In this document: piece by piece, positions 8,936 to 34,035 of the stretch | Layout of the letters: the number at the start of each line of letters is the position of its first letter | How positions within the stretch are numbered: position 1 is the first letter of the stretch | Source of the DNA: a virus | Length of the DNA: 34,035 bases | IMG/VR virus record: IMGVR_UViG_3300042922_000570 | Coordinates: 1-34,035 of that record | Reading direction: 5' to 3' (one strand) | Made by a program: the position numbers and the translations under genes | The notes under the pieces: model-generated | Database searches by the model: none | What the model was told of the DNA's origin: nothing | Seen by the model: the letters and a program-made list of their open reading frames with translations, nothing else

Positions 8936-9172
8936 ATGGAAGAAATAAAAGAAGGAACATTAGAAATGCTGCAACCAATTACTTTAGAACGAGAATTAAC
9001 ATTCTTACAAAGGCTTGCAAGGTTATTGAGTGTTAAAAGTTTAGTAACATTAATATTAACAGGTGTATTTGCTTATTTATCAATGACCGGTGTTATAGTA
9101 GCCGAACAGTTTCAAACAATTTTTACGGTAATAATAAGCTTTTATTTTGGAACTCAAGCAAAGAAGGAGTGA
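8936..9172 (+). CDS. Holin-like protein
   Basis: 78 residues with an amphipathic N-terminus and two hydrophobic segments (VKSLVTLILTGVFAYLSMTG and FQTIFTVIISFYFGTQ), ending in a short charged tail. It sits directly upstream of the endolysin. It probably forms the membrane lesion that releases the endolysin. ATG at 8936 follows AAAAGGAGAAATAAC. Confidence 0.72.
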   Translation: MEEIKEGTLEMLQPITLERELTFLQRLARLLSVKSLVTLILTGVFAYLSMTGVIVAEQFQTIFTVIISFYFGTQAKKE

Positions 9173-9176
9173 TGCT

Positions 9177-10442
9177 ATGACTTATTTAGTCATATTAGAT
9201 CCTGGACATGGATTGGACACTGCCGGTAAAAGAACACCATTATTTGATGATGGTACATTCATGCATGAAAATGAATTTAATCGGTCTGTAGTCAGAAAAA
9301 TTGATTATATATTAGAACAATATGAAAACATAGATGTTGTTTATACTACCACTGAAAAAAGAGAAATAGTACTTCCTGAAAGGATAGCCAGAGTTAATGA
9401 GCTTTATGAAAAAGTAAAAGGGTTATATGATAAGATTGTTTTAGTTAGCGTACATGCCAATGCTTTAACAGGTGAATGGGGCAGTCAAAACGGTACAGAA
9501 ACATATTACTATCCTACAAATCCAGTAGACAAAGCATTTGCTGAGACTATACATAAGCATTTAGTACAAGCTACAAATTTAAAGGACAGAGGAGTAATAG
9601 GAGAAAAATTCTATATAATAAAGAATGCTAAAATGACCGCCTGTCTTTGTGAATGTGCTTTCATGGACAATTTCGATGAAGCTAAATTATTAATGACTGA
9701 TGAATTTAGACAAGCTTGTGCAGCTGGTATCGTAAACGGACTAAAGGAGTATTTTGAAATTGAAATAAATGCAGAAGCAACTTATCAAGCTTACAATGAA
9801 AACATACATGAAATAGTCGGTAGTCCTGAAAAATTTGGAAGTAAGATAGTTAAAAAATCAAATAGAAAAATTGAAGAACCATTTTGTATTAATGGTAGTT
9901 TTCAATGGTGGGAAGATGCAGCAAGACAAAATCCTTATCCTACTTCAATTTTAATACAGGATGGTGTGATTTTAAGGAATGAAGCTAACCATTTGGATGA
10001 TTCTGATTCACCACAATCTGTTTATATCGTTTATAAAAACGGTGATGTTGATATGAAATTAGTTAAGTACGCAACAGATCTTGATTATAAAAATATTAAG
10101 TGTGCTGTTGGAGGAATGGGGCTAGTAAATACAGAAGATTCTAATTTCCGTTACAGTCCTGTCACAGAAGGTTTCTTTGGTAAATATGCAGATGTTTTAA
10201 GACGTTCCGATAAAACAGTGTATGGCTATAACATAAAAACTAAACAAGTTTATCTATTAGTAGTTAAAAACTGTACTATGACAGAGTTAATGAAAATTAT
10301 AACTAATAATAGTTCAGGTACTGCTTATAATTATGGTGTTATGGGCGATGGTGGAGGTTCTGTTTTTCTTAACAATGCAACTGACATGGTTGTTTATGGT
10401 GATGGTAGAACCATATATGCAATATTAGGCTTTGGACTTTAG
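9177..10442 (+). CDS. Endolysin: N-acetylmuramoyl-L-alanine amidase fused to NAGPA-like domain
   Basis: 421 residues from ATG 9177, behind AAGAAGGAG. Residues 1-195 are an Amidase_3 domain that cleaves the MurNAc-L-Ala bond of peptidoglycan. Zinc ligands are His11 (DPGHG), Glu33 (NEFNR) and His93 (SVHAN); the likely catalytic Glu159 is in CECAFMDN. Residues ~200-421 resemble the phosphodiester glycosidase (NAGPA) family: FCINGSF, ILIQDGVILRNEAN, GDGGGSVFLNN and GRTIYAILGF. This domain replaces the usual SH3b or LysM wall-binding repeats. It may cut or bind a phosphodiester-linked wall sugar (inference). Confidence 0.88.
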   Translation: MTYLVILDPGHGLDTAGKRTPLFDDGTFMHENEFNRSVVRKIDYILEQYENIDVVYTTTEKREIVLPERIARVNELYEKVKGLYDKIVLVSVHANALTGEWGSQNGTETYYYPTNPVDKAFAETIHKHLVQATNLKDRGVIGEKFYIIKNAKMTACLCECAFMDNFDEAKLLMTDEFRQACAAGIVNGLKEYFEIEINAEATYQAYNENIHEIVGSPEKFGSKIVKKSNRKIEEPFCINGSFQWWEDAARQNPYPTSILIQDGVILRNEANHLDDSDSPQSVYIVYKNGDVDMKLVKYATDLDYKNIKCAVGGMGLVNTEDSNFRYSPVTEGFFGKYADVLRRSDKTVYGYNIKTKQVYLLVVKNCTMTELMKIITNNSSGTAYNYGVMGDGGGSVFLNNATDMVVYGDGRTIYAILGFGL

Positions 10443-10484: not shown

Positions 10485-10511
10485 ACCGGACATTCGTGTC
10501 CGGTATTTTTT
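10485..10511 (+). terminator. Intrinsic terminator after the lysis operon
   Basis: ACCGGACA (10485-10492), TTCG loop, TGTCCGGT (10497-10504), then ATTTTTTATTTTTT. Eight perfect pairs with a stable tetraloop. It ends the rightward late transcript and overlaps the stop of the leftward gene at 10510. Confidence 0.9.
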
Positions 10512-10746
10512 ATTTTTTGTACATGTACCAGGTATTACTTTTTATTTCATATTTTAATTCGTAAATGGAACTTCCTTTGTGTTGGCACACAAAAATGAGA
10601 TTATTGTTTCCAAAACTCTTGTCTTCATAAATTTTGAGAATTTTTTCAACCATGACAGCCTGATCTTCATACCAAAATTTCACAGGCTCTATTTTTCCTT
10701 TTTCAAAAATAGCCATAACCTTAATAGGTTCATTTAAAATTTTCAT
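10510..10746 (-). CDS. Conserved hypothetical protein
   Basis: 78 residues from the ATG at 10746 (MKILNEPIKVMAIFEKGK), chosen because AGGTG lies 6 nt upstream; three further upstream codons are in frame. The pattern (IKV-A-F-KG-I-P--F--ED, then a Cys/Gln/Tyr-rich end LKYEIKSNTWYMYKK) recalls a small uncharacterised family found widely in Clostridia. A TATAAT box lies close upstream on the minus strand. Function unknown; as a leftward gene after the lysis cassette it may be expressed in the lysogen. Confidence 0.65.
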   Translation of the reverse strand: MKILNEPIKVMAIFEKGKIEPVKFWYEDQAVMVEKILKIYEDKSFGNNNLIFVCQHKGSSIYELKYEIKSNTWYMYKK

Positions 10747-10803
10747 TATCATCACCTGGTATTATAATATCATAAAATTAGAAAAATACTAGGTTTTTTT
10801 GAA

Positions 10804-10826: not shown

Positions 10827-10880
10827 AGTTATTTTGCTTGTCGAGTGTTTATACCTGTTGATTTTTCAAAGAAAATAACT
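10827..10880 (-). other. Inverted repeat at the end of the YdjM-like gene
   Basis: AGTTATTTT (10827-10835) and AAAATAACT (10872-10880) form 9-bp arms with a 36-nt loop, overlapping the stop of the leftward gene. Possibly a 3' mRNA structure. It has no clear T-run, so termination is not certain. Confidence 0.4.
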
Positions 10881-11280
10881 AATGCAACTTATATCGTTTA
10901 TTACTAAAAGGATAAGCTAAAGGAACTCCACTTGGAGTTGTCATGTCAAAAAATATGTGAATAACGCATCCCACCATTAGACCTACTGAAATGATATTAA
11001 AACCAAAAGCAATTATTGAAGAGTAAAACAAAACTGTAATGAAAAATATACTATGTGTTAAAGTTCTATGTCCTACTTTTTTATTAATAAAATTAGAAAT
11101 TGGTTTAACCTTTTTTCCTAATTTAGATTTAGGCATATCAATATCAGGCAGCAGTCCACCAACAGGAATACACATGAAATAAACAATACTCTCAGCTAAT
11201 GTAAAATCTAACAAAACATAAATCCACCAACCTACAAATAAAGCAAATATAGTATGTTCTAACCAGTCTAGGATAATCAC
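10879..11280 (-). CDS. YdjM-like integral membrane metal-dependent hydrolase
   Basis: 133 residues with several membrane segments. Motifs typical of the YdjM/LexA-regulated membrane hydrolase family are GGLLPDIDMPKS, GHRTLTHSIFF and HIFFDMTTPSGVPLAYPF, whose Asp/His residues should bind metal. Family substrates are unknown. The usual N-terminal Thr-His motif is replaced by WLEHTIFA. The start is doubtful: GTG at 11280 lies within the AAGAAGGTG motif itself, and a stop lies just upstream, so a non-standard or later start is possible. Confidence 0.75.
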   Translation of the reverse strand: MIILDWLEHTIFALFVGWWIYVLLDFTLAESIVYFMCIPVGGLLPDIDMPKSKLGKKVKPISNFINKKVGHRTLTHSIFFITVLFYSSIIAFGFNIISVGLMVGCVIHIFFDMTTPSGVPLAYPFSNKRYKLH

Positions 11281-11391: not shown

Positions 11392-11574
11392 GTGAGAAAT
11401 TCAATTAATTTGACATTTAAAAATAATAGAGAAGAAACAGAACTATATGAATGGCTCTGTAAAAGAACTACAAATAAAAGTGGTTTTATAAAGGATTTGC
11501 TTATGAGAGAAAAAGCAAAAGAGGAAATAAAAGAAACGAAGATCATGAAAGGTTTTATAACATTAGAACAATAA
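11392..11574 (+). CDS. Ribbon-helix-helix-like DNA-binding protein
   Basis: 60 residues from GTG at 11392, behind AAGGAGGTG. The N-terminal strand NSINLTFK followed by two helices (REETELYEWLC and NKSGFIKDLLMRE) has the layout of CopG/Arc-type regulators. It is the first gene of a rightward set including a hypothetical protein, an FtsK-like ATPase and a replication-relaxation protein. It may autoregulate the set or act at the repeats upstream of the FtsK-like gene (inference). Confidence 0.6.
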   Translation: MRNSINLTFKNNREETELYEWLCKRTTNKSGFIKDLLMREKAKEEIKETKIMKGFITLEQ

Positions 11575-11577
11575 AAA

Positions 11578-11629
11578 GCTCCCCCGTCGCCGGCAAGCTA
11601 GAGGAGGAGCAAACACAGAAGTGTTTTTT
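11578..11629 (+). terminator. Stem-loop followed by weak terminator
   Basis: A GC-rich stem pairs GCTCC (11578-11582) with GGAGC (11606-11610), continued by CC/GG after one mismatch, around a GC-rich loop. Directly behind it AACAC-agaa-GTGTT (11612-11625) runs into TTTT. Together they could terminate or attenuate transcription after the ribbon-helix-helix gene. Confidence 0.55.
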
Positions 11630-11679
11630 ATATTGTAACAAAATGCCGGTAATACTTTTGTCGAATGAAGGAGGCAGAT

Positions 11680-11919
11680 ATGGGCTTATTATATAAAGCA
11701 TACCAACATATTAGTTATGATGCATTAGAGATTGCAAGAGAAAAAGGTAAAGAAGTTGTTAAACAAATGCAGAAAGAAAAACAAAATAAGAAATATCAGG
11801 AAGCAAGAGAAGGCATTGACTATAAAGCATTAGACAAACACTGGGATGATATGCTTCAGGAATGCCATGATAAGTTCAATGGTAAAATTGGAAATAAAAG
11901 CCGTACGTCACTTCGTTGA
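11680..11919 (+). CDS. Hypothetical protein
   Basis: 79 residues from ATG 11680, 5 nt behind AAGGAGG. Highly charged and helical (AREKGKEVVKQMQKEKQNKK), with no recognised domain. The last codons (SRTSLR) run into a compositionally distinct hairpin-rich stretch at about 11905-11970, so the true C-terminus may have been replaced. It lies between the ribbon-helix-helix and FtsK-like genes. Confidence 0.6.
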   Translation: MGLLYKAYQHISYDALEIAREKGKEVVKQMQKEKQNKKYQEAREGIDYKALDKHWDDMLQECHDKFNGKIGNKSRTSLR

Positions 11920-11969
11920 GCTCGCTAACGCTCACTCACTTCGTTCCTACAAGTTATAAAATAACTTGT
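11905..11969. repeat. Hairpin-rich, GC-shifted junction sequence
   Basis: TCACTTCGTT occurs twice around GAGC-tcgctaac-GCTC, then the perfect stem ACAAGTTAT-aaa-ATAACTTGT (11949-11969). Composition differs from the flanks and resembles sequences often found at plasmid or conjugative-element junctions. The strong 9-bp stem could act as a terminator or structural site. Confidence 0.55.
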
Positions 11970-11990
11970 CCTATAGTTATCATATATCGC

Positions 11991-12040
11991 AAGAACATGT
12001 TCTTTGGCCATGAACAAATCAAGGAACAAATTGCGGAACA
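11991..12040. promoter_or_regulatory. 14-bp palindrome and GAACA iterons upstream of FtsK-like gene
   Basis: AAGAACATGTTCTT (11991-12004) is a perfect palindrome. GAACA then recurs at 12012, 12024 and 12036, with an exact 12-bp period in the last three and GAACAAAT shared by two. Phased short repeats in front of a DNA-transfer gene suggest a binding array for the ribbon-helix-helix or replication-relaxation protein. Not a LexA box: the GAAC/GTTC spacing is 2, not 4. Confidence 0.55.
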
Positions 12041-12058
12041 CTTTTAAGGAGGTTTATT

Positions 12059-13255
12059 ATGTTAGAATTAATAACAATGGCTGCAGTAAGTCTTGGAGCC
12101 GGATACATTATAGATGATTATTTAAGTAGAAGAAATTGGATAGCAATTTTTAAAAGCACTGGATTAAAGATTGAAGAAAAATATCCTGAACTTAAAAAAA
12201 CAGAAAACAATAAAATCGGTAAAAGGTACATTTTTAAGGTTCCTTATGGTTTATGTTTATCAGATTTTGAAAAACGCAAAGAAGAATTAGAAATGGCTTT
12301 GCATGAGCCTTTAAAATGCGATTTAACGCACGAATACAATATAGCTATCCAAATATACCACCTAGCATATAAAAAGATTTACAAACTCATAAATAACTTG
12401 CTTAAGACTAATGATTTAGTATTTCCTATTGGCGCAACTTTAACCACAGAAGGAGAAGAAAATGTTAGTTTAGAATTTAATAGATCCAATAGTCATATGT
12501 TAGTTTGCGGAGGAACTGGAAAAGGTAAAACAGCCTTCATGCAAAATATAACAGCACAAGCAATGCTAAAGAGAAATATTGAAGTTTATATCTGCGACCT
12601 AAAGGCAACAGGATCATACAATTTATTTAAACAATGCTTAAATCTAAAGGAACTTGTTAAAAGTGATATAGAGACCATTAGGATATTAAAGAAAATTAAG
12701 AGTATCATGGAAAAACGATATAAAATATTGGATGAACATAACTTAAATGACGTTGGAGAATACAATGAAAAATTTAAAAATGGTAGAATGAACAGCATTA
12801 TATTGATTGTAGAAGAGTTTGTTATTCTAAGTAAGAATTCAATTGTTATAGATTTACTTAATATACTCTTAGCTCAGGCATCCGGTGCAGGCATTCATAT
12901 ATTTTTAACAGTTCAACGTCCTGATGCAAAGACACTAGATACCAGATTAAAAAACAACCTATCATATACAGTAGCATTCAAAGCTAAAAACTCAAGCAGT
13001 TCAGAAACCTATCTTGATAAAGGTGACTACAGAGCAGCAACAGATCTTCGCAAGCCAGGTGAAGCAATCCTGGTAAAAGATGATGAAGATATCTATTTCA
13101 AATCCTATTATTCCACCAATGAAGAAATATTAGAAATGGTAAGAAAAACATATGTAACAAAGAAAACAGAAAACAATGTTATTGAGTTAAAGCCAACTTT
13201 TCAACTTCCAAAAGTAGAGCATGTAAAAGAAGAGTTGGAGGATGATGTTTTATGA
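12059..13255 (+). CDS. FtsK/SpoIIIE-type DNA translocase (TcpA-like)
   Basis: 398 residues. P-loop ATPase with Walker A GGTGKGKT (151-158) and Walker B-like ILIVEEF (about 249-255). LAQASGAGIHIFLTVQRPDA follows, characteristic of FtsK/SpoIIIE motors and plasmid or ICE coupling proteins. One hydrophobic N-terminal segment (residues 2-18) may anchor it to the membrane. There is no C-terminal gamma domain for KOPS reading. ATG at 12059 follows AAGGAGGTTTATT. It overlaps the next gene by 4 nt (ATGA). Probably pumps double-stranded DNA; its role in a phage is unclear. Confidence 0.88.
   Translation: MLELITMAAVSLGAGYIIDDYLSRRNWIAIFKSTGLKIEEKYPELKKTENNKIGKRYIFKVPYGLCLSDFEKRKEELEMALHEPLKCDLTHEYNIAIQIYHLAYKKIYKLINNLLKTNDLVFPIGATLTTEGEENVSLEFNRSNSHMLVCGGTGKGKTAFMQNITAQAMLKRNIEVYICDLKATGSYNLFKQCLNLKELVKSDIETIRILKKIKSIMEKRYKILDEHNLNDVGEYNEKFKNGRMNSIILIVEEFVILSKNSIVIDLLNILLAQASGAGIHIFLTVQRPDAKTLDTRLKNNLSYTVAFKAKNSSSSETYLDKGDYRAATDLRKPGEAILVKDDEDIYFKSYYSTNEEILEMVRKTYVTKKTENNVIELKPTFQLPKVEHVKEELEDDVL
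12308..12326. repeat. 19-nt exact direct repeat, copy 2 (in FtsK-like gene)
   Basis: Same 19 bases as 10804-10822. Here they encode EPLKCDL (about residues 83-89) of the FtsK-like protein, upstream of its Walker A motif. Confidence 0.9.
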
Positions 13256-13764
13256 CAGAACGTGATTTGTTTATTGTAGACTTTATAGAAAAATGCCCTT
13301 GCAGCTCTGCAACGATTCATAAGTTATTTTTTAAAGGAAAAACTATGAGAATGGCAAACAAAAGGCTACATAAACTATTTGATTACGGTTACATAAACCG
13401 AACCAGAAATTCATCTTGGGAGAATTACACTTACTATCTAAACAGAAAACCGGCACAGCTCATACACTCTGATTGTATTGCAAGGTCCTATTTATGGCTA
13501 TTGGAAAAAGGTTATATAATTCATAGCTATGAAATACAAAAGCAATATAATAAAGTACGGCCAGACTTATCAGCTGACATTGAAAAGAATGGCAAAAGAG
13601 GAATGGTTGCTATTGAAGTTGAACTCTCCAATAATGATATTAAAAAGAAAATAAAACAATATGAAGAACAGGATTTATTTAAGAGTTTAATCTTAGTTAG
13701 TAATTATATAAGGACCAGTGAGATTATAAAAATATCAAATGTAAACATAAAAGAGCTGCCATAA
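13252..13764 (+). CDS. Replication-relaxation family protein
   Basis: 170 residues. An N-terminal winged-helix-like region (DLFIVDFIEKCPCSSATIHK ... RLHKLFDYGYINRTRNSS) is followed by a nuclease-like alpha/beta part (VRPDLSADIEKNGKRGMVAIEVEL). This matches the replication-relaxation family seen on Gram-positive plasmids and integrated elements, usually next to FtsK-like genes as here. Translationally coupled to the FtsK-like gene (ATGA). The stop lies inside the terminator hairpin at 13752-13778. Confidence 0.75.
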   Translation: MTERDLFIVDFIEKCPCSSATIHKLFFKGKTMRMANKRLHKLFDYGYINRTRNSSWENYTYYLNRKPAQLIHSDCIARSYLWLLEKGYIIHSYEIQKQYNKVRPDLSADIEKNGKRGMVAIEVELSNNDIKKKIKQYEEQDLFKSLILVSNYIRTSEIIKISNVNIKELP

Positions 13765-13817: not shown

Positions 13818-13850
13818 ATAGTCAATTTAATATTGGGAGGATATTTTCAA

Positions 13851-15251
13851 ATGAAAAAGAGGGTTTTAAGTTTTGTACTAGTCTTTATGCTTATAATATC
13901 GACTGCAGCATACGCAGTTAATATTAGTATTGACGGCAATAATGTAAGTTTTACAGAGCAATCAGGAGCTCCTTTTGTAGATGGAAACAACAGAACTCAG
14001 GTACCATTAAGAGTAACTATGGAGAGCTTTGGCGCAACTGTAGGATGGAATAATGACACCAGGACAGCAATTGTTGAGAAGGATGGAGTAAAAGTAGAAG
14101 TTCCAGTTGGTCAGTCCTACATAATTAAGAACGAACAGCAAATTAAAAATGATACTGCTGCAATTATAAAAGACGGCAAAACATATCTGCCCATTAGAGC
14201 AGTTCTTGAAGCTTTTGGAGCTAATGTTGGTTGGGATAATTCAACTCAGACCGTTACTGTTTCTAAATCATCATTAGCAGATTTAAAGATACATTTCATA
14301 GACGTTGGCCAGGCTGACAGCATATTAATAGAGTTGCCTACAAATGAAGAAATTCTAATTGATGCAGGAAATAAGGGAGATAATAATACAATTATTAACT
14401 ATATAAACGGTCTAGGTATTGATGATATAGAATATTTTATATTAACACATTTTCATGAAGATCATATTGGTTCAGCTCAGGATGTGCTAGCAGCTTATGA
14501 TGTTGATAGAGTTTATATTCCTGACACTACTGCAGATACACAAATATACAAAGACACAATGCAGGCAATAAAGGATAATGGTTCAGAATTAATTAAAGCT
14601 ATAGCTGGCACAAATATTATTGATACAGCTAACTTGGATTTTGAAGTTTTGGCACCTAATTCAATGTGGTATTCTGAAATGAATGAATATTCCTTAGTTA
14701 CAAAGTTGCTTTATGGTGATACATCATTCCTGTTTACTGGAGATGCTGAATCAGTTTCAGAATTAGAAATGGTCCGTGCCGGTTATGATCTTGATGTTGA
14801 TTTATTAAAAGTAGGACATCATGGAGGAGAAACAAGTACATCTCAAACATTCCTAGATGCTGTCAGCCCAGAGTACGCTGTAATTTCTGTTGGAGAAGGT
14901 AATACATATGGTCATCCACATGATAAAACTCTAAGTCGATTAAACATCATTGGAGCAAAAATTTACAGGACTGACAAGCAGGGAATAATAATTGCCACAT
15001 CAGATGGAACTAATATTAAAATTGATAAGGCAGCAACAATCTATACTCCAGAGCCAGTTAAAGAAGAACCAGTAACAACCCCAACTCAAGACAATAATCA
15101 AAGCTATATTGGCAATAGTAACTCATTAAAATTCCATTATCCGACTTGTAGCTCAGTAGCTACTATGAGCGAAAGTAATAAGGTGTTTTTTAATAGTAGG
15201 ACCGAAGCTGTTAATAAAAGTTATGAGCCATGTGGCAGATGTAATCCGTAA
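13851..15251 (+). CDS. Secreted MBL-fold hydrolase with copper-amine-oxidase-N and Ada-like domains
   Basis: 466 residues from ATG 13851, 10 nt behind GGGAGG. A signal peptide (residues 1-22, ending STAAYA) is followed by two copper amine oxidase N-terminal type repeats (PLRVTMESFGATVGWNNDT and PIRAVLEAFGANVGWDN, ~23-140). Next comes a ComEC-like metallo-beta-lactamase domain (~145-345) with HFIDVGQAD, H200-F-H202-E-D204-H205 and KVGHHGG. A C-terminal module (KFHYPTCSSV ... PCGRCNP) resembles Ada-type zinc-binding. Related exported proteins occur in Clostridia; substrate unknown, possibly nucleic acid or a phosphodiester. Looks like cargo (moron) DNA with its own promoter and terminator. Confidence 0.88.
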   Translation: MKKRVLSFVLVFMLIISTAAYAVNISIDGNNVSFTEQSGAPFVDGNNRTQVPLRVTMESFGATVGWNNDTRTAIVEKDGVKVEVPVGQSYIIKNEQQIKNDTAAIIKDGKTYLPIRAVLEAFGANVGWDNSTQTVTVSKSSLADLKIHFIDVGQADSILIELPTNEEILIDAGNKGDNNTIINYINGLGIDDIEYFILTHFHEDHIGSAQDVLAAYDVDRVYIPDTTADTQIYKDTMQAIKDNGSELIKAIAGTNIIDTANLDFEVLAPNSMWYSEMNEYSLVTKLLYGDTSFLFTGDAESVSELEMVRAGYDLDVDLLKVGHHGGETSTSQTFLDAVSPEYAVISVGEGNTYGHPHDKTLSRLNIIGAKIYRTDKQGIIIATSDGTNIKIDKAATIYTPEPVKEEPVTTPTQDNNQSYIGNSNSLKFHYPTCSSVATMSESNKVFFNSRTEAVNKSYEPCGRCNP

Positions 15252-19993: not shown

Positions 19994-21145
19994 GTGGAGA
20001 ATCAATTCAATCTATTTGATGAAATAATGGATGATTTAGAAGATGATTTGCTTGATGGTGAAAACAGTAATTGGACAAAAGAAGAAGCAAAAGCATTTCA
20101 AACTTATATAGATGAGCAACGTAGTAAAACAAATGCATTCATTATAAAACAGCAACTTCCATATGAACAAAAGTTAATACATGCAAAAGCAAGGGCTTGG
20201 GAATTTAACGATAAATTAGGTGGAAACTGCTTTATATCAGTAGGTGGATTAGACAGCATTACACTTTTAATATTTTTAAGGTCAATAGGAATTGATGTTC
20301 CTGCAGTTTCTGTTTCTTCTCTGGAAGATAAAAGCATTCAGGAAATACATAAACAGTTAGGTGTTAAAGCATTGAAACCATACAAAACAAAAGTTGAAGT
20401 AGTAAAAGAATGTGGTTATCCAATAATCAGTAAGGAGAAAGCAGGAAAAATACAACTTTTGCAAAATCCAACTGAAAAGAACAAGACTGTAAGGCATGCG
20501 ATAATGACAGGTGAATGTGGCAAACAAGGTGGGTATAGAAAAGGAACCAAGATGAAACTTCCACAAATATGGCTTGAATTATTCGGAGGTCCTGAAAATG
20601 AAGCTTACGGCACAAATTACAAGACAGCTCCTTTCAAGGTATCAAATGATTGTTGTTATTACATGAAGGAAAAACCGTGTGATGATTATGCAAAAGAAAC
20701 AGGCTGTCATCCATACCTAGGACTAATGGCATCAGAAGGAGGACAAAGGGAAAAAGCCTTAATGAAAAATGGTTGCAATTATTATGGAAAGTCAGTAACA
20801 AGGAGTTGTCCTTTTGCGATATTTTCTAGACAGGATTTATTACAACTAGCATTAGATTTAAAAGTACCAGTACCAAGAATTTATGGTGAAATTGTTAGAG
20901 ATAAAGACGGAACTTTAAGAACAACTAGAGCTCAGCGAACAGGCTGTAGCATGTGTGGCTTCGGTATTCATATGGAGAAAAGACCACACAGATTTGACAG
21001 ATTAAGAGAAGATAACCCAAAGGAATGGCATTTCTGGATGTATGACATGGGCTGGGGAAAAGTTCTAGACTACATAGGAGTACCGTGGCAGAAATATGGG
21101 GATGAAGTCAATGGTCAATTATCTATGTTTCAAGGAGATGATTAA
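19994..21145 (+). CDS. Phage PAPS-reductase / ATP-pyrophosphatase-like protein
   Basis: 383 residues from GTG 19994, 7 nt behind AGGAGG. Family traits: IISKEKAGKIQLLQNPT, FKVSNDCCYYMKEKPCDDYA, GLMASEGGQREKAL, SRQDLLQLALDLKVPVPRIY, RTGCSMCGFGIHMEKRPHRF and VLDYIGVPW. Cysteines in the CCYYMK and CSMCGFG motifs may hold an iron-sulfur cluster. The PP-loop reads SVGGLDS instead of SGGKDS, losing the usual Ser and Lys. Phage members of this family have no settled function; nucleic-acid sulfur or other adenylation chemistry is possible. The N-terminal ~50 residues are acidic. Confidence 0.82.
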   Translation: MENQFNLFDEIMDDLEDDLLDGENSNWTKEEAKAFQTYIDEQRSKTNAFIIKQQLPYEQKLIHAKARAWEFNDKLGGNCFISVGGLDSITLLIFLRSIGIDVPAVSVSSLEDKSIQEIHKQLGVKALKPYKTKVEVVKECGYPIISKEKAGKIQLLQNPTEKNKTVRHAIMTGECGKQGGYRKGTKMKLPQIWLELFGGPENEAYGTNYKTAPFKVSNDCCYYMKEKPCDDYAKETGCHPYLGLMASEGGQREKALMKNGCNYYGKSVTRSCPFAIFSRQDLLQLALDLKVPVPRIYGEIVRDKDGTLRTTRAQRTGCSMCGFGIHMEKRPHRFDRLREDNPKEWHFWMYDMGWGKVLDYIGVPWQKYGDEVNGQLSMFQGDD

Positions 21146-28446: not shown

Positions 28447-28591
28447 ATTGAAAATTCATTTGAGTGTGAAACCTCCTACAAAAAAATGATCGCTCAATTT
28501 CAGTTTGGTTGATACGTTAATCGTATAGGGTGCATGTCCTAATGAAGCAGGGTTGGGGAGCTTGGACATAAAAAATAAGTGGGTGAGGGTA

Positions 28592-29194
28592 ATGAAGAAA
28601 AGACCGGCTAATCCAATTAAACAGCCGAGTAAAGTTTTAGACATTCAAGATTATTTGAGAGAGCAAAATGAAAGGGATTATGTTTTGTTTGTGCTTGGAG
28701 TTGCTACTGGATATAGAGCAGGTGATCTTGTTTCTCTTCAAATAAGAGATGTCAAAGAAGCTTTGAGAGCTGGTTATTTTAGAATTATGGAAGGCAAAAA
28801 ACTTAATAGTAAAAATATTAGGAAGAGCAATATGAAGCCAAGAGAAGTAGTTATAGTGTCAAAGCTGGAGAAGGTTTTGAAAAACTATATCAAAGGCAAG
28901 AATGATTATGAGTATATGTTCCCAAGTAGAAAAGGGAGCTATGATCATATAGGTGTTGCCAGGGTATCAACTATACTCAAGGAAGCTGGTGAAGCTTTTG
29001 GGCTTGATAATATATCAGCTCACAGTATGAGAAAGACTTATGCATATTGCATCTTTATTGAATGTGACAGGGACATATTAGTTGTAAAAGAAATGCTTGG
29101 ACATAGCAGCATAGAAGAAACTAAACGCTATTTAGGATTAAATCGTCAAGACTTTGATAATTATAGTAAAAGTCTTAATGCTTTAATCCTTTAA
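28592..29194 (+). CDS. Short tyrosine recombinase (catalytic domain)
   Basis: 200 residues from ATG 28592, behind GTGAGGG. Only the catalytic domain is present: Arg42 (GYRAGDL), Lys in MEGKKLN, His154 and Arg157 (HSMRKTY), His181 (LGHSS) and Tyr190 (RYLGL). No arm-binding domain. A second recombinase besides Int; such short enzymes occur upstream of terS in Gram-positive phages. Possible roles are resolution of circular multimers or control of packaging and late genes. Not proven by sequence. Confidence 0.85.
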   Translation: MKKRPANPIKQPSKVLDIQDYLREQNERDYVLFVLGVATGYRAGDLVSLQIRDVKEALRAGYFRIMEGKKLNSKNIRKSNMKPREVVIVSKLEKVLKNYIKGKNDYEYMFPSRKGSYDHIGVARVSTILKEAGEAFGLDNISAHSMRKTYAYCIFIECDRDILVVKEMLGHSSIEETKRYLGLNRQDFDNYSKSLNALIL

Positions 29195-33893: not shown

Positions 33894-34035
33894 AGAACAA
33901 TATTTAAAACAAAGAAATGCCTTGATGGCAGAAATTGAAACTTTACTTGCAGATGGTAAAGTTGAAGATGCTAATGCAAAGATGAAAGAAGTTGAAGCGT
34001 TAGACAGTAAATGGGAAGAAGCAAAACTTGCGAAT
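33886..34035 (+). CDS. HK97-family major capsid protein, 5' end
   Basis: True start of the capsid gene. ATG at 33886 follows the ribosome binding site GGGAGA and overlaps the last codons of the protease gene, which stops at 33893. The first residues are MNKEQYLKQRNALMAEIETL. From 33909 onwards this duplicates 1-127, and the frame continues at position 1. A start chosen within 1-127 alone would truncate the delta domain by about 12 residues. Confidence 0.93.
   Translation, partial: MNKEQYLKQRNALMAEIETLLADGKVEDANAKMKEVEALDSKWEEAKLAN
33909..34035. repeat. 127-bp exact terminal repeat, right copy
   Basis: Exact duplicate of 1-127. It carries the codons that follow the start of the major capsid gene (ATG at 33886). 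Trimming one copy restores a single open reading frame across the join. Confidence 0.95.

Follow-up and report, generated by a model that had tools for sequence, protein, structure and literature searches.

The genes that lie between the lysis genes and the integrase side of this virus form a real, intact member of a cassette that is widespread in phages and plasmids, and do not form a complete transfer system. Its core is a TcpA/FtsK-like ATPase followed by a Replic_Relax-like protein, which may itself be the DNA-nicking enzyme. The window, that is, the whole stretch of 34,035 nucleotides that was analyzed, is an entire virus record, and the exact 127-base repeat at its ends (1–127 = 33909–34035) indicates a circular assembly of about 33.9 kb. 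Its genes follow the order head, tail, lysis, cassette, metallo-beta-lactamase-fold protein, tyrosine integrase and repressor (the last two leftward), beyond which come excisionase, antirepressor, DnaD/DnaC-type replication genes, methyltransferase, and terminase; this content is that of a temperate siphophage. Among the window ORFs scanned, we recognized no type IV secretion system (T4SS), VirB4, mating-pore, or pilin-like gene and no ParA or ParM; integrase, repressor, and excisionase are present. The scan thus recognized neither the VirB4/mating-pore genes of a conjugative element nor the partition or plasmid replication genes that replace the integrase in a phage-plasmid. Three other genes deserve mention: the one in the cassette–integrase interval (13833–15251; phrog_14556, E = 5e-102) combines copper-amine-oxidase N1, ComEC-like metallo-beta-lactamase, and Ada-type zinc domains; a PAPS-reductase-like protein, of a family type frequent in phages, is encoded at 19994–21145 (phrog_424, E = 6e-28); and a second, short tyrosine-recombinase-like protein (213 aa) is encoded close to the terminase genes (28553–29194).

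The first-pass annotation had described four rightward genes after the lysis genes, at 11392–13764, and these are indeed there (table 1), the start of the Replic_Relax gene overlapping the end of FtsK by 4 bp. The linked block is larger than it stated, as it includes two leftward genes in both related loci L004 and L005. For the set overall, proteins of the relatives are 85–93% identical to those of the window, with dN/dS of about 0.06–0.15; in two viral contigs (one metagenome), identity is 85–86% for FtsK and 79–93% for Replic_Relax, and dN/dS against L004 is about 0.08 and 0.06, respectively. Because the genes are kept at high protein identity and low dN/dS, the set is not a chance association: the cassette is intact and under purifying selection. 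It is co-inherited in L004 despite a lysin and an integrase unlike those of the window, and a tyrosine recombinase is located inside the block in L005. Absence from close relatives accompanied by decay, which would have spoken against the first-pass reading, was not what we found: the distribution is patchy (FtsK in 4 of 26 terminase-relative records, many of which are fragments), yet there is no decay. Even in G002 and G330 (loci L098 and L105, 1216–2533), where a pair of overlapping genes encodes FtsK, divided at the border between its N-domain and its motor, both halves are under purifying selection. In these two loci, inspection by eye also places a uracil-DNA-glycosylase-like gene (1–627) directly past Replic_Relax at the contig end, possibly in host DNA flanking the attachment site.

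Table 1. Features of the cassette and its immediate surroundings (window coordinates)
Feature	Coordinates	Strand	Remarks
Amidase endolysin	9147–10442		Precedes the cassette
Small protein	10510–10755	−	Travels with the cassette; 79% identity in both L004 and L005
YdjM-family membrane protein (PF04307)	10879–11280	−	Pfam E = 9.4e-27; 76% / 40% identity in L004 / L005
RHH-like DNA-binding protein, 60 aa	11392–11574	+	phrog_4223, E = 2e-8; homologs in L005, L098, and L105
Conserved leader	11577–11660	+	Kept in five loci
Small protein	11665–11919	+	85% identical in L004; other small genes at this place in L005/L098
Noncoding block, candidate operator or oriT-like site	11943–12058		Upstream of FtsK
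TcpA/FtsK-like ATPase, 398 aa	12059–13255	+	PF01580; best solved relative TcpA (6o1w/6o1z)
Replic_Relax-like protein, 170 aa	13252–13764	+	Predicted winged HTH and PD-(D/E)XK-like domain; a candidate relaxase or nickase of the MOB_C type

The ATPase matches PF01580 (E = 1.2e-10) and phrog_1358 (6e-53), and carries a Walker A motif (GGTGKGKT, residues 151–158) and an EE Walker-B-like motif. Its best solved relative is TcpA (E = 9e-17 with the single sequence and 6.5e-57 with the family profile), which is FtsK-like and serves as coupling protein in the FA-type conjugation system of plasmid pCW3. As in TcpA-type proteins, there is one PF01580 motor and it is nearer to FtsK than to VirD4, but the FA-type T4SS with which such proteins are encoded is not found among the window ORFs scanned. 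Its N-terminal hydrophobic segment is only borderline (Kyte–Doolittle maximum of 1.46, vs. 1.6–2.1 in several relatives), and its predicted structure is too poor for use (pLDDT 58).

Replic_Relax is more divergent: its match to PF13814 (E = 3.7e-4, 21.1 bits) falls below the Pfam cut-off of 25.3, and it also matches phrog_9996 (4e-14), while a profile–profile comparison links it to clear PF13814 members (93.7%, E = 1.9e-7). The AlphaFold model (mean pLDDT 81, pTM 0.57) predicts a winged HTH (HHH plus wing) followed by an alpha-beta-beta-beta-alpha-beta arrangement, and Foldseek returned weak matches, none with E ≤ 0.001, to winged HTH regulators as well as to FokI, Hjc, SwaI, and tRNA endonuclease. 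Across 81 homologs, six columns (E, D, E, D/E, K, and Y) are invariant or nearly so, their equivalents in the window being E94, D105, E122, E124, K133, and Y137. The predicted structure thus has the winged HTH and PD-(D/E)XK-type domain of MOB_C relaxases, and the sequence has their acidic/lysine site as a putative active site. In the record of CloDF13, which is the source of MobC, a MOB_C prototype, and in which the mob region is hard to read, the PF13814 profile matched nothing, so that no direct link to this prototype emerged. The fold of MOB_C relaxases is PD-(D/E)XK, to which TraX adds an N-terminal winged HTH (PMC12857230), and PF13814 has been classed as the MobC superfamily of relaxases (PMC5357655) and treated as that superfamily or as a relaxase elsewhere (PMC12479173; PMC11104534). 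The predicted domains, the invariant site, and this literature together make it doubtful that the cassette is devoid of a relaxase, as the first-pass annotation had asserted; Replic_Relax is a MOB_C-like candidate and that assertion is probably wrong.

The 5′ part of the cassette contains the RHH-like gene, the conserved leader, and the noncoding block upstream of FtsK. The first gene had been called a ribbon-helix-helix (RHH) protein, a call that finds no significant Pfam match (phrog_4223, which it does match, is a family of unknown function) and is supported indirectly, by its replacement in L004. The protein in that slot is a different one of 48 residues, which by eye has a classical CopG-type RHH appearance, suggesting that RHH function was kept there; auxiliary proteins of relaxosomes usually have the RHH fold (PMC12857230). 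The leader that follows can form a hairpin (CUCCC..GGGAG) and a second one (AACAC-AGAA-GUGUU) followed by a T run, and it includes conserved GGCGG/GCCGG and TGTCGAA motifs in the window, L004, L005, L098, and L105. We make no claim for pairing between its loop and GGCGG/GCCGG, as this pairing is broken in L004, and a search of Rfam for a riboswitch or other known RNA gave no match. In the five loci, TGTCGAA, which is identical to the Spo0A-box core, lies just 5′ of the next ribosome-binding site, before the small gene after RHH. Control of the cassette by Spo0A was nevertheless rejected, as the regions upstream of FtsK in 80 loci of Bacilli show no enrichment of the motif (0.125 vs. 0.102 per kb). 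The 116-bp noncoding block contains an inverted repeat (ACAAGTTA..TAACTTGT) and a palindrome (AAGAACATGTTCTT), and is 90–97% identical in L005 and L004, against 81–84% nucleotide identity for FtsK. This conservation is not at the protein level: a 43-aa ORF (11916–12047) was rejected as a gene, its start being missing in L005 and the differences being mostly amino-acid-changing. By sequence, the block is a candidate operator or oriT-like target site, although no oriT was identified for the cassette.

A reading of such a set as typical of plasmids and not of phages did not hold. Because the window Replic_Relax has diverged, tblastn with it matched few records (0 phages and 2 plasmids), and we used a Geobacillus member instead; this one query returned 57 phage records versus 12 plasmids. 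Annotation places FtsK on or against the match in 37 of 40 phage rows among the matches listed and in 11 of 12 plasmid rows; two of the other three listed phage rows were inspected, and FtsK was adjacent in both. The plasmid label itself covers different situations, pGspE55-2 carrying the head, tail, and lysis genes of a phage as a complete set and pBEH5 being a plasmid with ParA and MOBP typing. A genome scan with a Bacilli-only FtsK alignment yielded 80 loci (L115–L194), in 74 of which Replic_Relax lies directly downstream within 100 bp; when the FtsK alignment was a mixed one, the genome scan gave nothing, and a viral scan with Replic_Relax gave only two already known relatives. The co-occurrence of the two genes is already known, and a plasmid origin has been proposed for the ParM, RHH, T4SS-like, and replication-relaxation genes of tyroviruses (PMC9703825).

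The pair also occurs in Andromeda, Page, and similar phages, in whose records no integrase is listed, so that a role confined to lysogens cannot be general. This occurrence, together with the DNA-injection role suggested for such genes in phage Pony, is consistent with a lytic-cycle function in which infecting DNA is pulled in, replicated, or processed. We consider this improbable, because the genes are dispensable: between the Bacillus subtilis phages 268TH002 and 268TH007, which share 96% identity, the main difference is a 2,525-bp segment that carries the pair (PMC9476937). The patchiness of FtsK among the terminase relatives and the presence of the genes on plasmids argue in the same direction.

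The neighbors of the pair point to other possible roles. G006 (L099, 1–14000), a terminase relative with phage head genes, has FtsK–Replic_Relax preceded by a small resolvase, ParA, and an RHH-like protein; no tyrosine integrase was found in it and the contig lacks an end repeat, but its layout is that of a phage-plasmid, for which it is a candidate. In 56 of the 80 Bacilli loci, FtsK or FtsK–Replic_Relax is followed by a small membrane protein similar to T4SS pilin/TrbC (Pfam E-values from 3e-6 to 0.013, one sequence being above the cut-off), and in the six Bacilli loci without Replic_Relax the pilin-like protein comes directly after FtsK. An AimR-type regulator is encoded near one of the loci with a pilin-like protein, that of Shouchella. 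On plasmid pMU3262, a SpoIIIAC-family protein is encoded two genes upstream of FtsK. The window has neither a T4SS-pilin/TrbC-like nor a SpoIIIAC-family protein. The surroundings in G006 and pMU3262, and the ParM and RHH protein near the equivalent genes of tyroviruses (PMC9703825), would fit a device for segregation or inheritance of the phage DNA, acting in a plasmid-like phase, in dimer handling, or in trapping DNA in the forespore. A link with sporulation also appears in the presence of Replic_Relax in 55 of 249 Spo0A-positive versus 0 of 52 Spo0A-negative genomes of the sampled class, but this is confounded by phylogeny, and the Spo0A-box count given above does not add to it. As an integrase is encoded in the window, without a recognized ParA/ParM, and as phages without an annotated integrase carry the pair too, we regard such a device as quite unlikely here.

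Another terminase relative, the phage contig G008 (L100, 177–2645), has FtsK followed by a Rep_1 protein (PF01446, E = 7e-23) in the Replic_Relax slot, Rep_1 being a family of rolling-circle initiators. This substitution bears on the possibility that the pair is a prophage defense or exclusion cassette, in which an FtsK/HerA-type ATPase and a PD-(D/E)XK nuclease would destroy incoming DNA. The interval between lysis genes and attP, near the integrase, is a classic site of accessory genes, and the pair behaves as an accessory block in that only one of the two nearly identical B. subtilis phages has it. The ATPase domain matches the SspH and mad8 defense models (E = 2e-21 and 1.6e-16), and the adjacent metallo-beta-lactamase protein matches defense MBL models. 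However, the SspH and mad8 matches are confined to the generic ATPase core, Replic_Relax has no PADLOC match, the slot of the nuclease is occupied by an initiator in G008, and elsewhere the pair lies close to ParA on plasmids and next to T4SS-pilin-like genes; we hold a defensive role to be unlikely.

The reading we favor, tentatively and at slightly less than an even chance, is that the cassette is a nick-and-pump DNA-processing module. Replic_Relax would bind a site on the circular phage DNA, for which the noncoding block upstream of FtsK is the candidate, through its winged helix and would cut one strand with its PD-(D/E)XK-type active site; the TcpA/FtsK-like ATPase would then be recruited and pump that DNA at the membrane, with the RHH protein as an autoregulator or relaxosome helper. 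The most likely use of the module would be to treat the extrachromosomal circle of the phage in the manner of a plasmid, either by mobilization through a borrowed pore or in initiation/segregation. What the analysis itself shows is gene order, near-obligate pairing, conserved motifs, purifying selection, and the slot replacements by Rep_1 in G008 and by the other RHH-like protein in L004. In favor of the reading are also the TcpA match of the ATPase, the predicted fold and invariant site of Replic_Relax, the MOB_C literature, the pilin-like gene of many Bacilli loci, and the neighbors of the pair in G006. Counting against it are the VirB4, mating-pore, and pilin-like genes not recognized in the window, the phages without an annotated integrase, where conjugative mobilization is hard to motivate, the weak Pfam and Foldseek matches of Replic_Relax, the borderline N-terminal segment of FtsK, the CloDF13 and oriT results, and a survey of streptococcal integrative and mobilizable elements (IMEs), in which PF13814 relaxases are paired with VirD4 and never with TcpA (PMC5357655). 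In a broader version, which we think unlikely, the temperate phages that infect spore-forming Firmicutes would possess a functional relaxase of MOB_C-like type and a TcpA-like coupling ATPase, with a VirB2-like membrane protein as an added component in many Bacilli, so that the circle moves or is inherited like a mobilizable plasmid, independently of the virion.

Dozens of phages have annotated FtsK and "replication-relaxation" genes, and guesses at their role run from DNA injection through to the SOS response. Read as a coupling ATPase with a MOB_C-like nuclease, often followed by a T4SS-pilin-like third gene, they come under a single hypothesis that can be tested at named active-site residues and that, if true, would give phages a second path of DNA movement or inheritance, one that needs no virion. 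New here are TcpA as the closest relative of the ATPase and the prediction that its partner follows the MOB_C design, a winged HTH and a PD-(D/E)XK-like domain with an invariant acidic/lysine site. The resemblance to transfer genes seen in the first-pass annotation was right, TcpA being the best solved relative of the ATPase.

Compared with known systems, the ATPase resembles TcpA of pCW3, its best PDB match, in its FtsK-type motor, and differs from it by the borderline N-terminal segment and by a setting without recognized FA-type T4SS genes. Replic_Relax has the winged HTH and PD-(D/E)XK-like design of the MOB_C relaxases (TraX of pAD1, MobC of CloDF13, and PF13814 proteins of streptococcal IMEs), as well as the conserved acidic/lysine residues and an adjacent coupling-type ATPase; unlike them, it lies below the Pfam cut-off, its nicking activity is predicted, and its partner is a TcpA/FtsK-type ATPase where the streptococcal PF13814 proteins have VirD4. 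The same two genes, adjacent or overlapping, are found in vB_BhaS-171, PK5.1, 268TH007, Andromeda, Page, and tyrovirus Thrax (gp17–gp18), and vB_BhaS-171 shares the order lysin, FtsK, Replic_Relax, leftward integrase, and leftward repressor. The window proteins are far diverged from these, FtsK being only 22–26% identical to the FtsKs of Bacillus/Geobacillus phages, whose pairs also differ from that of the window, which has no pilin-like gene after the pair and has the RHH-like protein and conserved leader upstream. Some streptococcal IMEs have a TcpA gene upstream of a relaxase of the rolling-circle-replication initiator type (PMC5357655); they share with the window an ATPase gene directly 5′ of a DNA-processing gene, an arrangement that FtsK and Rep_1 repeat in G008, whereas the setting here is a full tailed-phage genome.
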